Below, one piece after another: positions 121 to 15,892 of a DNA stretch of 15,892 nucleotides. The notes under the pieces were generated by a model that saw nothing but the letters and a program-made list of their open reading frames with translations, did no database searches and was not told the origin of the DNA. Source of the stretch: Clostridia bacterium (lineage in GTDB: Bacteria > UBA6262 > WVXT01 > JAUXBS01); NCBI GenBank assembly GCA_030618495.1, contig JAUXDE010000029.1:1-15892 (forward strand), read 5' to 3'. Both the position numbers and the translations under genes were made by a program. The stretch's first letter is position 1. Every line of letters begins with the position of its first letter.

Positions 121-216
121 GGAATTATGGGGACACGTACTTAATTATTTTGTTCTAAGGAATTGTGTCATTATTGTGTTTCAAAAAAATAATTAAGTAC
201 GTGTCCCCATAATTCC
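121..216. repeat. palindromic repeat element, copy 1
   Basis: This is a perfect inverted repeat of 31 bases per arm (121-151 and 186-216) around a 34-base AT-rich loop. The arms begin GGAATTATGGGGACACGTAC. A second copy of the same design lies at 11053-11135. At the position after GTAC this copy has a T:A pair (141:196) where the other copy has C:G, so pairing is kept although the base differs. The right end touches the TAG stop of the glycosyltransferase gene. From memory, GGGGACACGTAC-type palindromes occur scattered in many genomes with IS200/RAYT-type (Y1) transposases. No transposase gene is present here, so this would be a non-autonomous REP- or MITE-like unit. It could also form a 3' mRNA hairpin for the gene that ends in it. 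Confidence 0.9.
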
Positions 217-11052: not shown

Positions 11053-11135
11053 GAATTATGGGGACACGTACCTAATTATTTAGTAACAACACTATTGAAA
11101 AGAGCTAAATAATTAGGTACGTGTCCCCGTAATTC
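11053..11135. repeat. palindromic repeat element, copy 2
   Basis: An inverted repeat with 31-base arms (11053-11083 and 11105-11135) around a 21-base loop. The arms begin GAATTATGGGGACACGTACC and are nearly identical to copy 1 at 121-216. There is one mismatch, T11059 against G11129, which is a wobble pair on the plus strand. The base pair after GTAC is C11072:G11116 here and T:A in copy 1. The right end is one base away from the TGA of the DegT-like gene, much as copy 1 abuts the glycosyltransferase stop. It fills most of the 110-base gap before sppA. The loops of the two copies are unrelated. No poly-T tract follows the arm, so it is not a standard intrinsic terminator. Confidence 0.9.
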
Positions 11136-11136
11136 T

Positions 11137-12300
11137 TCATAATTTCAAACCTGCCCCCAAAGACCCTAATATTTCCACCATCGTATTTATGTCTTTTTCC
11201 GTTACCCATTCATGAACAGGCAGGGACAGAATCCCCCCGGTTAATCGTTTCGAATTCTGCAGCGGCTTTAACAATCTCAAATATTCTGTCGAACTCTCTA
11301 TCCCGCCTGCAAGAAGCAACCGCCTTGCCGCCTCCCTATCGTCGCTGTCTTTGAAAATGATAGGCATGCTGTTATACACCGTCCGGCTGTAAACAGGCAT
11401 TTTTGGGAATCCAAGCTTCTTGTTGTTTCTAAGCCTTTCCATAAGAAATGTGCCGTTGAATAATCTTTTGATATTGGAATCCAGGATATTTTTCAGAATT
11501 GCCAACCCAACAGCAGCCTGTATGCCTGTAAATCTTCTTAAATCAACGTTATCACCATTGGTTTTGAAACAATTTCTGAGCACCGGAAACAAACCATAAA
11601 CAACAGGGTTTGAAATGGCCCAAAGAACCATTAACCTCACTATCACCCCGAACCCATAGATACTGCCCCGGCTTTTAAGTTCCTTCACTTTTTTGCTGAA
11701 TTTCCCTGCCAGCTCTTCATTGTCCGTTACAATACACCCCCCCGAATAGGTTGAAAAATTACTTTCAGCGTCAAAACCCGTAAACCCGGCGTCACCTATC
11801 GCTCCGACTTTCCTTTCATGATAATAAGAACCGAAAGCGCGGGTGAAGTCTTCAATAAGCCATACATTCCTGTCCCTGGTTAACTCCAGTACCGGATTAA
11901 GGTCACGGGGCAAACCAAAAGAATGGACAGCGACTACACACAAGGTTTTCTTTGAAATAAGCCTTGATAGTGAGCTCCTGTTGAAATCAAAGGAATCCTG
12001 CGATACGTCACAGCACACAACCTTTAAACCAAGCTTCCTGATAACATTTTCAAGCTCGCTATGGGTGTAGGCGGGAACTATTACTTCCCTGCCTCCGGAA
12101 ATCCCCGAGAGTGTTTTAAGAATAATCCCCAATGACGCGCTGCCCGAGCCTGTTGTAAAACAATACCTGCTGTGAAGAAAACCCGACAGTTCTCTTTCAA
12201 AATCTTTTACCGGGTTCTTCCGCTTCAGGCACAACAGAAGGCCTCTTAGCAAATCACTCATCCTTATATGAGAAGCGCAAACACTCAGCCTCCTTAACAA
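11137..12300 (-). CDS. DegT/DnrJ/EryC1/StrS-fold protein lacking the PLP lysine (probable pseudoenzyme)
   Basis: A 387-residue protein with the fold and order of sugar aminotransferases of the DegT family. Seen are TTGSGSASLGIIL (49-61), REVIVPAYTH (71-80), AVHSFGLP (124-131), LIEDFTRAFGS with D151 for the PLP ring nitrogen (148-158), then VGAIGDAGFTGFDAESNFST. The family motif at that last place is F-x-A-x-K-N-(L/I)-x-T-x-x-G-G. Here the lysine column holds S180 (AGT codon) followed by N181, so the Schiff-base lysine is gone. The frame is otherwise intact. It may be a binding protein or a dead enzyme rather than an aminotransferase. The start used is TTG, with AAGGGAG six bases upstream. The next in-frame ATG (12261) would drop 13 residues and has poor spacing. 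It follows the small TPR-like gene and ends at palindromic repeat copy 2. Confidence 0.8.
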   Translation of the reverse strand: MLRRLSVCASHIRMSDLLRGLLLCLKRKNPVKDFERELSGFLHSRYCFTTGSGSASLGIILKTLSGISGGREVIVPAYTHSELENVIRKLGLKVVCCDVSQDSFDFNRSSLSRLISKKTLCVVAVHSFGLPRDLNPVLELTRDRNVWLIEDFTRAFGSYYHERKVGAIGDAGFTGFDAESNFSTYSGGCIVTDNEELAGKFSKKVKELKSRGSIYGFGVIVRLMVLWAISNPVVYGLFPVLRNCFKTNGDNVDLRRFTGIQAAVGLAILKNILDSNIKRLFNGTFLMERLRNNKKLGFPKMPVYSRTVYNSMPIIFKDSDDREAARRLLLAGGIESSTEYLRLLKPLQNSKRLTGGILSLPVHEWVTEKDINTMVEILGSLGAGLKL

Positions 12301-12301
12301 G

Positions 12302-12603
12302 TTATTCTCCCTTCATTCCTTCCTTCATTTTTCTTATTCTATCCATCATATTCTTTGCTATGTCCGGCATTTGCTTTATTTCTTCTTCCTTGCGCTTTCA
12401 GGCTCATAACTCAGGGCAATTTCCAATGCCCTGGTTGCTTCTTCATAATCATCGCCAAAAAACGCCCTGATTGAATTCCTGAAATAATCATCATTGCTCT
12501 GGTCCACGGCTAATACGCCTGCGGTTGCGGTGAGCAACAACATTAGGATTATTACAATAGGCCTAAAACACAGTCGGTTACTTCTTCCAAAGTTTATTAA
12601 CAT
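12302..12603 (-). CDS. small exported TPR-like protein, frame probably broken near its end
   Basis: The plain reading frame runs 12603-12376 and gives 75 residues. There is a basic N-terminus (GRSNRLCFR), a hydrophobic core (about 15-29), a possible signal-peptidase site after VLA at residue 32, and one tetratricopeptide-like helix pair (YFRNSIRAFFGDDYEEATRA and LEIALSYEPES). It then ends abruptly in RKKK and TAA. In the -1 frame the sequence continues EEEIKQMPDIAKNMMDRIRK and stops at TAA 12302-12304, three bases before the DegT-like start. That frame first opens at 12397, so any shift must occur between 12397 and 12379, in an A/G-rich run. The ATG follows directly on the TGA of the coiled-coil gene, so the two are coupled. 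The family is unknown. The intact protein would be about 100 residues. Confidence 0.6.
12307..12313 (-). promoter_or_regulatory. Shine-Dalgarno site supporting a TTG start
   Basis: AAGGGAG on the minus strand lies six bases before the TTG at 12298-12300 that opens the DegT-like gene. A second purine run, AAGGAGG at 12289-12295, lies just inside the gene. It has no in-frame start at a useful distance, and the ATG at 12261 is 27 bases further. This favours the TTG. Confidence 0.55.
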
Positions 12604-15600
12604 TCAATTTAACGCCGTTTCCTTTTTATTGCCGCTTTTTTTCCTGGAATGCCTGAATAACCTCGCAACCAGTCCTTTACTCAGCTCCTTATCCAGTTCA
12701 ATCTGCAGGGAATCCATTTCCTTCTTTTTGTATTCCAGTTCATCCTTAATATTTTTCAGTACTCTTATTTTTTCGTCGTATTCCGATTTTATCTTGTTAT
12801 ATTTTTCGGACATTTCACGACGAATATTTTCTTTTTCCTCATCCAGCCTTCTTATTCGCGCAGTCAATTCATCCTTCTCACCGTTTGCCTTATGTTTTAT
12901 TTCATCCTTTTCACTTTCCATTTTCTCCTTCAACTCGCTCCACTCAAGAGCCTTCTGCTCGTATTGAACCTGGAAATCTCTTTCCTTCTGAGCCATTTCA
13001 GCCTTTAATTCGTCAATATGTTTCTGGAGTTTGCTCTTCATTGACTCCATTTCCTGCTCTTTTAATTGTGTCTCTCTTTCATTTCTTTCCTTCTGCAGTA
13101 ATGCCTGCGCCTGAAGGTTCTTCTTCTCCTCATCCCACAGTTTCTTCTGCATTTCCTCCGACAGTTCCTTGTTCTGGATCCGCATCTGAAGTTCTTTGAC
13201 CCTGATTTTCTCTTCCCATACCTTGTTCTTTTCCTCATCCAGCCTGTTCTGGATTAATTCGTTCTTAAGGTTTAACGCCTTTATACTGTTCCTGCTGCTA
13301 TTAATATCATTTTCCAGCCCGGTATTTATTTTTATTAACTCCTGCTCTTTCCTCTGGTAGGATTCCTCAAGCTCCACTCTTTTCTGAACAAGGCTTGACT
13401 TTACCCTGTCAACATCCTGTTCCTTTGCCCTGATAACGGCGCCCCTTATCCTTTCCTCTTCAAGTTCCGCCCTAACTTCCATCAGCTTATTTTCGATTTC
13501 CCTCCTGGCATTGATGATTTCATCTTCCCTGTTCTGGCACTCAAACCTTACTTCCGTCTCCCTTTCAAATATCCTGTTCCTTTCCGCTTGCACTTCCTCA
13601 CCCTTGAGCTCAACCCTTTTCTTCCATTCATCATCCAGTTCATTTATCTGTTTTCTCAGCTTTTCGTGCTCGTTTTCCTTCCTGCTAAACTCCGTCTCCA
13701 GCATATAAACACGGCTTTCTTTCTCCTTCAGCCTTGCCATCCATACCAGCTTGCCTTCTTCAATGCTTATCTGAAACTTCTGGTTCTCCAGTTCCCTGTC
13801 TCTTATCCTGTCAAGCAGTGCCTCTTTTTCCCCTTCCATATGTTTCATGGCGGCTTCATGCCTGTGTTTCTCTTCTTCGAGGAACACCCTTTTTTCCCTC
13901 TCATTGCTTAAAACAATATTACCATTCTCCAGTTCCTTTTCCAGCTTCACCTGCAGCATTTCCAGGGAATGCCTGCTGCCGGTAACATCCTTCTGCAATT
14001 GCTGTTTCTCGGTCAGATGCCAGTCATCCGTCTTTTTCATGGTCTCTTCCCTGTTGTTCAGCTTGATTTCGAGACCGGACTTTGCTTCTTCATGCTTCCT
14101 GATTCTCTCAAGTAATGATTCCTTTTCCTGCTGCCTGCTCCTTGATATATCATCAACCTCCTTCTTGTAGCTCTCTTCAGCCCTCTCCATATCCTCGCTC
14201 TTGCGCTGGAGGACTTCCTCAAACTGGGCCTGCTTCTGGAGGTTTTGAATCCTTAAATGATTTATCTCCTCTTCTTTTTTGCTTAGCAACTCCCTCTTGC
14301 TCAGGTTTTCATCTTCAAACCTGTTTTTCAAATCGTTAAATTCAAGTTCTTTTTTATGTACCTGGGTAATGAAGCTTTCGTTCTCCTTGTTCTTATCAAC
14401 CAACTTTTCATTTAAGACCGAAACATCCTTCCTGCCCTTCTCCTCAAGCCACTTGTATTCCTCGTTCTTACTGTCGTACTGCGCCTGCAGCTGCGCCTCC
14501 CTGACTATCATCTGCGACTTCATGTCGTTTATTTCTTCCTGCCCCTTCTTTATCAGTTCAAAATATCTATTTCTTTCTTGTTCGGCATCCTCGCTGATTT
14601 TTTTCACTTCGTCCCTGTACTGTCCTCTCAACCTTTCAAAATCCTTCTCCTTATTCTCAAAACTCAGCCTTAACTCTTCGTTCTTCCTCATCAGTTTGTT
14701 GTCAAGCGACGCCAGCTCGTCTTTTTTCTCGGAACCCATTCTTTTCCAGTTTTCTCTTTCTTCGTCAAGCCTTGTGGCAACTTCCTTCAGCTGCCTCTCC
14801 AGTCCGGCTTTCTGGCCAACCATGGACTCCTTCTCGTCCATGTACCGCGACTTCATGTCGCCTTCCGACTTTGCAAGCTGAATTTCAATACTGCTTATTT
14901 TCTCGTCCCTTTTCTTTATCCTGTCATTCAACACGTCTCTTTCCTCGGCTATATCGTGCTTGATACGCGCTATTTCATCCTCATGCTGTACCCGCGTTGT
15001 CTCCATTCCCTGCTTTTTTTGCTTCTGGCTTTCATTATTCTCTGTTTCAATTTTCGTCATGTCATTCTTCATTGAAATGATTTCATCATTTTTTCCGGCT
15101 ATCTCTCCAAGCAGTTTTTCCTGTGTCTTCCTCTGGATTTCGTCCAGTTCCTTTACCTGTTTCCTGAGGTTTTCCTCCGACGCCTTCAATTTATTTTCCT
15201 TCTCCAGGTGTTCGTCTTTAAGGGATACTTCTTTTAGTGTCGCCTCGGACATTATAATGCCCCTTGTTTCCTCAGCTTCCTTAAATATCCTTTCCTTTTC
15301 CGCGCGTTCCTTCTCAATCAAATGGTCTTTTTCCCTGATAACCTCTTCTTTTCCCTTAACCTCCAGCTGCGCCTTGTGTTTGTTGTCTTCAATAACTTTA
15401 GTGAGATTATAGACTTCCTTTTCAATCACCTGAACTTTCTGGTCCCACTGCGTTCTTTCATTGTTCAGATTCTGGCGGGACTTATCAGCCTCGTTTTCCC
15501 TGTCTTTTCTTTCCCAATCAATATCCGCCTGCATAAGAGTGTACTCCGCCTTCAGTTTATCCATTTCCGTTGTAATTTCATCAACCCTGCGCTTGGCGAA

Positions 15601-15892
15601 CTTCAGCTCGTCAACCTTATCGCAATACATCTTTTTTGCATTCATCCCATCATCGGTCATCTTTTGTTTAAGGGCATTAATCTCATTATCCTTCATTCCC
15701 AGTTGATTCCTGGAATCCCTTTCATTTTCCTTCAACTGCATCTGCATACTTCTTATATCGTCCTTGAGCACGGCCATGCTCTTTTCATTTTCTTGTTTTG
15801 TCTTATCGAACCCCCTCAACATGTCGGCTTCCCTGAGCGACCATTCCGCTTCCGCCATGCTCATTTTCTCCATCAGCTTAACTTCAACTTCC
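12604..15892 (-). CDS. large coiled-coil protein, 5' end outside the window
   Basis: At least 1095 residues are visible and the frame is still open at the window edge. The ATG at 15873 has no close ribosome site and is probably internal. The visible part is almost entirely Glu/Lys/Arg/Gln with Leu/Ile/Met at heptad-like spacing, and I find no proline in the 1089 residues from that Met. This predicts one uninterrupted alpha-helical rod, at least 160 nm if a single coiled coil. Degenerate internal repeats of about 90-100 residues are visible. The C-terminus changes to a basic tail, GLVARLFRHSRKK, which could bind membrane or nucleic acid. No SMC, Rad50 or MukB ATPase motif is visible, but those may lie upstream of the window. 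The gene leads a unit with the small TPR-like protein (stop TGA directly followed by ATG) and the DegT-like protein. Function is unknown; a cytoskeletal or scaffold role is inference. Confidence 0.85.
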   Translation of the reverse strand, partial: EVEVKLMEKMSMAEAEWSLREADMLRGFDKTKQENEKSMAVLKDDIRSMQMQLKENERDSRNQLGMKDNEINALKQKMTDDGMNAKKMYCDKVDELKFAKRRVDEITTEMDKLKAEYTLMQADIDWERKDRENEADKSRQNLNNERTQWDQKVQVIEKEVYNLTKVIEDNKHKAQLEVKGKEEVIREKDHLIEKERAEKERIFKEAEETRGIIMSEATLKEVSLKDEHLEKENKLKASEENLRKQVKELDEIQRKTQEKLLGEIAGKNDEIISMKNDMTKIETENNESQKQKKQGMETTRVQHEDEIARIKHDIAEERDVLNDRIKKRDEKISSIEIQLAKSEGDMKSRYMDEKESMVGQKAGLERQLKEVATRLDEERENWKRMGSEKKDELASLDNKLMRKNEELRLSFENKEKDFERLRGQYRDEVKKISEDAEQERNRYFELIKKGQEEINDMKSQMIVREAQLQAQYDSKNEEYKWLEEKGRKDVSVLNEKLVDKNKENESFITQVHKKELEFNDLKNRFEDENLSKRELLSKKEEEINHLRIQNLQKQAQFEEVLQRKSEDMERAEESYKKEVDDISRSRQQEKESLLERIRKHEEAKSGLEIKLNNREETMKKTDDWHLTEKQQLQKDVTGSRHSLEMLQVKLEKELENGNIVLSNEREKRVFLEEEKHRHEAAMKHMEGEKEALLDRIRDRELENQKFQISIEEGKLVWMARLKEKESRVYMLETEFSRKENEHEKLRKQINELDDEWKKRVELKGEEVQAERNRIFERETEVRFECQNREDEIINARREIENKLMEVRAELEEERIRGAVIRAKEQDVDRVKSSLVQKRVELEESYQRKEQELIKINTGLENDINSSRNSIKALNLKNELIQNRLDEEKNKVWEEKIRVKELQMRIQNKELSEEMQKKLWDEEKKNLQAQALLQKERNERETQLKEQEMESMKSKLQKHIDELKAEMAQKERDFQVQYEQKALEWSELKEKMESEKDEIKHKANGEKDELTARIRRLDEEKENIRREMSEKYNKIKSEYDEKIRVLKNIKDELEYKKKEMDSLQIELDKELSKGLVARLFRHSRKKSGNKKETALN

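Follow-up and report, generated by a model that had tools for sequence, protein, structure and literature searches.

The window, by which we mean the whole 15,892-nucleotide stretch of DNA analysed here, encodes on its reverse strand a DegT-type protein whose reading frame opens on a TTG codon and contains no internal stop codons (Table 1). The protein matches PF01041 (DegT/DnrJ/EryC1/StrS) over its full length (E=3e-46 across residues 30–377; 158.7 bits against a cut-off of 19.8; profile positions 25–358 of 360 covered), and this match together with a predicted type I aminotransferase fold places it in that family by both sequence and structure. A small ORF and a gene for a coiled-coil protein lie upstream, while SppA, Yip1 and ArgJ lie downstream.

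Table 1. Features of the DegT locus and its surroundings, in window coordinates.
Feature	Position	Strand	Details
DegT/DnrJ/EryC1/StrS-fold protein without Schiff-base lysine	11137..12300	-	387 aa
GGGAG, ribosome-binding-like sequence	12307..12311	-	six bases 5' of the TTG start; direct reading
D151-F-T-R154	11839..11850	-	PLP-N1 Asp (D151) kept; invariant A153 replaced by Thr
G175-F-D-A-E-S180	11761..11778	-	in place of S-F-N-R-G-K of relatives
Ser180 codon AGT in Schiff-base lysine column	11761..11763	-	alignments to PDB chains and homologues
Hydrophobic helical insert, subfamily-typical, retained	11566..11664	-	residues 213–245
Shortened His loop	11221..11280	-	residues 341–360, between invariant Y340 and P361
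Perfect inverted repeat GGGGACACGTACCTAATTATTTAG	11060..11128		immediately past the DegT stop codon
Small ORF	12302..12603	-	75 aa
Coiled-coil protein	12604..15891	-	at least 1,095 aa; no Pfam match

Some of the surrounding features deserve comment in their own right. The repeat has 36 matches in the genome at up to three mismatches (control, 0), often as facing pairs and including another copy at window positions 129–208, and it looks like a dispersed palindrome of the REP type. The small ORF has a signal-like N-terminus and ends in ESARKKK-stop, while another frame runs on as EEEIKQMPDIAKNMMDRIRKMKEGMKGE-stop; it looks frameshifted at AAGGAAGAAGAAA, with no clear homologue for comparison. 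In the sister family a 1,121-aa coiled-coil-like protein is encoded directly upstream of MotA/MotB, a place corresponding to that of the coiled-coil gene in the window.

Ser180 falls under the catalytic lysine of PDB chains aligned with phmmer (e.g. the K of FHPRKTLTTGEGG in 8vr5), as an earlier note on this DNA had proposed, and once homologues taken from other genomes are aligned with it, every other row carries Lys in this column. The window protein thus lacks the Schiff-base lysine required of an active DegT-type sugar aminotransferase. Lysine occupies the column in all 41 close subfamily members, in nearly all of the wider aligned homologues, and in 14 more loci from whole-genome searches, the largest of which surveyed 386 genomes. 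The 41 relatives are also invariant around it, with Ser five residues before the Lys, Arg and Gly at the two positions preceding it, and Asn after it. The serine codon is two base changes away from a Lys codon, just as the note had said; the interval it gave for the motif, 11740–11785, was right to within a few bases (F176–G188 actually occupies 11737–11775).

A single-sequence scan of genome contigs found no relatives, and an alignment-guided scan was required to find them. An initial survey of genomes yielded four relatives of full length, at 31–25% identity. The alignment-guided scan covered named genomes and recovered 79 loci; the close set has 41 members, and the closest relatives are 36–37% identical to the window protein. 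The collection was scanned for Ser-type members with one pattern that permitted Ser and another that was independent of the Ser180 site, and no second example appeared in this sample of 79 named loci, about 95 related loci altogether, and 386 surveyed genomes. In the tree the window protein pairs with a Lys-type protein from a Planctomycetales MAG (L037; support 96/90) inside a clade with Omnitrophota, Elusimicrobiota and Nitrospirota members. Omnitrophota form the richest clade. The window protein's branch length is 1.53, about three times the median of 0.53, and at such a length the placement of a row is unsure. Since no second Ser-type protein was found among these loci and the nearest relatives are all Lys-type, the window protein is one long terminal branch, and the distinct branch of Ser-type members that had been anticipated is not supported. 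The loci L075 and L077 encode near-identical DegT proteins; their MAGs are labelled Chloroflexi and Rokuibacteriota and have soil-scaffold names that resemble each other, which suggests a binning error. A distant DegT homologue in a Zipacnadia MAG (L115:1913–2412) spans two frames and has Phe in the Lys column (SMKKFFNFGTGIDGG), possibly as another lysine-less case or as a misalignment.

The serine is part of a larger block of change that the earlier note had missed: NRGK has become DAES, accompanied by S175G, A153T, an Arg three residues past the Asp, and a 10-residue deletion. The SFNRGKN motif of the relatives accordingly reads GFDAESN. In Spr1654, the PLP phosphate is bound by a Thr and by Ser194, which lies five positions ahead of the Lys; an Asp contacts N1 of PLP, and the residue three past this Asp contacts O3' (PMC5936713). 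The stretch from that Ser to the Lys runs alongside the sugar, and the substrate site is lined in part by a C-terminal His (PMC5936713). The positions equivalent to residues 175 and 180, the residue three past D151, and the His loop are cofactor or substrate contacts in that enzyme (PMC5936713). In the window protein the phosphate-binding Ser, present in 41/41 relatives and required of an aminotransferase, is Gly175, and the residue three past the Asp is Arg154, a position held by Gln or Ser in 39/41 relatives. An in-frame deletion of 10 residues takes out the His-containing loop above the active site, so that only 20 residues separate Y340 and P361 (28–40 in relatives, 30 in the nearest clade); Lys345 occupies the column of the C-terminal-loop His expected in an active aminotransferase. 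The Asp that contacts PLP N1 is kept as D151, as noted before, while the N-terminal GSGSASLG loop, also described as remaining, does so only in part: S52 and G53 persist, while position 51, usually Asn, holds Gly.

The 41 relatives share 17 fully invariant columns. The window protein retains 12 of them, and each of the five that have changed (A153T, S175G, R178A, G179E and K180S) belongs to the cofactor pocket. The hydrophobic helical insert of the subfamily is still present, with a core (residues 216–241) more hydrophobic than any other compared (mean 1.67). Insert and tree together relate the protein to the Lys-type subfamily associated with radical SAM and WbqC genes.

The codons of the block hint at one possible origin. 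Read one base back, codons 178–180 give R-stop-K, which matches the consensus R-G-K, and this is the best match among 1,512 shifted triplets in the gene. NRGK could thus have become DAES through a compensated frameshift, in which one base was lost and another gained inside a span of about 12 bases. In a random-coding comparison, 3–5% of coding triplets in the window match equally well, and because of this chance level of about 0.03–0.05 the frameshift is suggestive only; S175G, A153T and the loop deletion lie beyond its reach. The same pair of indels could instead be a sequencing or assembly error that disguises an otherwise normal enzyme. The earlier note had considered a single sequencing error unlikely, which is correct for point errors, but one compensating indel pair could produce the whole change. 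We regard such an error as very improbable: besides the chance matches, the shifted frame itself contains stop codons, and S175G, R154, A153T and the missing loop are independent of the indel pair.

The AlphaFold2 model of the protein (50 alignment rows) has a mean pLDDT of 94.2 and a pTM of 0.93, a confidence that, the alignment being one of intact relatives, shows compatibility with the fold and not stability. Among solved structures, sugar aminotransferases and E1 come closest in fold (Foldseek TM about 0.8). Comparison with 7b0m gave a VIA Z of 41.7 and an rmsd of 2.1 over 336 residues, and the E1 and ColD chains gave Z values of 40.9 and 39.3. In the model the lysines after residue 198, one of which it had been suggested might substitute for the missing one, lie on or just past helix 195–206, which succeeds the GG strand.

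The good matches to E1 and ColD, together with the retained D151, raise the question of a PMP-dependent enzyme in which Ser180 or another side chain serves as acid-base in place of His or Lys, since ColD and E1 are lysine-less members of the family that use PMP and His (PMC8987622). The 3-dehydratases, however, need His in the Lys column (PMC8987622), where the window protein has Ser; it has also lost the phosphate-anchoring Ser and the His loop, and it sits among Lys-type relatives. A ColD-like dehydratase was rejected because the His column is Ser and the phosphate Ser is gone, and we consider any enzyme of this kind very improbable.

The genomic setting of the relatives differs from that of the window. 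In most close relatives the DegT gene lies directly between genes for a SAM methyltransferase and a radical SAM/SPASM protein, and 3' of the latter there often follow a GT4 glycosyltransferase, a 492-aa protein that matches no Pfam family, WbqC and PIG-L. This cluster occurs at L037:5278–12358, L038:5147–10740, L044, L050, L055, L057, L063 and other loci, from Omnitrophota, Elusimicrobiota, Nitrospirota, Planctomycetota, Poribacteria and further phyla; the open papers searched, a set outside which most subscription papers fall, contained no description of a WbqC/PIG-L/radical SAM/DegT cluster. In the window genome, 98% complete, nothing matches WbqC, the radical SAM partner or the 492-aa partner, and the neighbours in the window are unrelated to the cluster. 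The window DegT gene is an orphan. The SppA-Yip1-ArgJ order is conserved in the sister family, where DegT is absent and MotA, MotB, rplM and rpsI (named from sequence, without a profile test) precede SppA. This common order indicates that the contig belongs to the lineage and that the DegT gene was added or left over. Searches of the phylum's five other genomes, several of them incomplete, turned up no member of the subfamily. The only genome of the same genus (76% complete) yielded neither a DegT copy nor the coiled-coil gene; its SppA contig begins inside SppA, and the absence of DegT there is uninformative.

We favor the interpretation, at a probability of roughly 0.5, that the window protein is a pseudoenzyme, a catalytically dead derivative of a glycan-cluster sugar aminotransferase that is kept for a non-catalytic binding role. 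Its ancestral subfamily would normally work within the methyltransferase/DegT/radical SAM/GT4/WbqC/PIG-L cluster, which the window lineage lacks. With Lys180, Ser175 and the His loop missing, an internal aldimine presumably could not form, and we infer that the ability to hold PLP has probably been lost as well; transamination would then not be expected, and the earlier description of the protein as probably non-transaminating gains support from all three losses. Loss of the lysine by itself is no proof of lost cofactor binding, given that crystals of Lys-to-Ala mutants in the family, according to the titles of 3dr4, 4oca, 3nys and 4ztc, nonetheless contain bound PLP or external aldimines. Since the protein retains its fold, its hydrophobic insert and those subfamily invariants that lie outside the pocket, the most likely remaining role would be non-catalytic binding, perhaps of a glycan or membrane ligand or of a protein partner. 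A more specific version, in which a lysine-less pseudoenzyme lineage in this small phylum uses the fold and a hydrophobic lid as a glycan-binding or regulatory protein at the membrane surface, strikes us as unlikely.

Ranking close behind is the possibility, tentative in our view, that the gene is a decaying relic: having lost its purpose when the glycan cluster went, it would be free of selection and would simply not have acquired a stop codon so far. Its orphan status, the long branch, the failure to find a DegT copy in any other genome of the phylum, the possible indel pair and the frameshifted look of the small ORF directly upstream would all fit. The protein also deviates at 11/41 columns conserved at 90% or more, which exceeds all 41 relatives tested alike (the next deviates at 9/42, most at 0–3). 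The codon-position G+C of the ORF (0.45/0.40/0.48) is flatter than that of neighbouring genes and weakly favors relaxed selection; like the long branch, it counts against a maintained pseudoenzyme. Against a relic stand the 387 intact codons behind a good ribosome-binding site, the retention of all 12 invariant columns other than the five at the pocket, a sequence predicted to fold confidently, and the selective way in which the pocket is struck. Because a single copy is known, selection on the present form is not measurable, and a functional pseudoenzyme and a decaying relic are indistinguishable.

The protein is an instructive but single case. Should it be expressed and maintained, it would offer a natural example of a DegT protein that lacks the lysine and probably the cofactor and that stands apart from the His-type ColD/E1 group, and would help to show how a PLP fold outlives its own chemistry; if a relic, it would be a snapshot of enzyme loss following pathway loss. 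A by-product may matter more than the DegT protein itself: the conserved glycan gene cluster, common to several phyla, to which its Lys-type relatives point. Lysine-less members of the family are already known, whereas the open literature searched, outside which most subscription papers fall, contained neither a Ser-bearing member with an eroded pocket nor anything relevant on lysine-less DegT pseudoenzymes.

Compared with known systems, the window protein is closest to its Lys-type relatives such as L037 (Planctomycetales), L038 (Omnitrophota) and L041 (Nitrospiraceae), with which it shares the hydrophobic insert and the AYT, ED, SGG and LPVH motifs. These relatives adjoin radical SAM/SPASM, GT4, WbqC and PIG-L genes and retain three further elements, SFNRGKN, EDCAQ and the PLHHxFDLG loop, in these or closely similar forms; the window protein has none of the three, nor the cluster. 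It resembles the solved enzymes ArnB, PseC, GDP-perosamine synthase, Spr1654 and WbpE in fold (VIA Z about 40) and in the N1 Asp, but unlike them lacks the Lys, the phosphate Ser and the His loop. The 3-dehydratases ColD, E1 and SpnQ are also lysine-less and belong to the same fold family; they carry His at the Lys column and use PMP, whereas the window protein has Ser there, in an eroded pocket.
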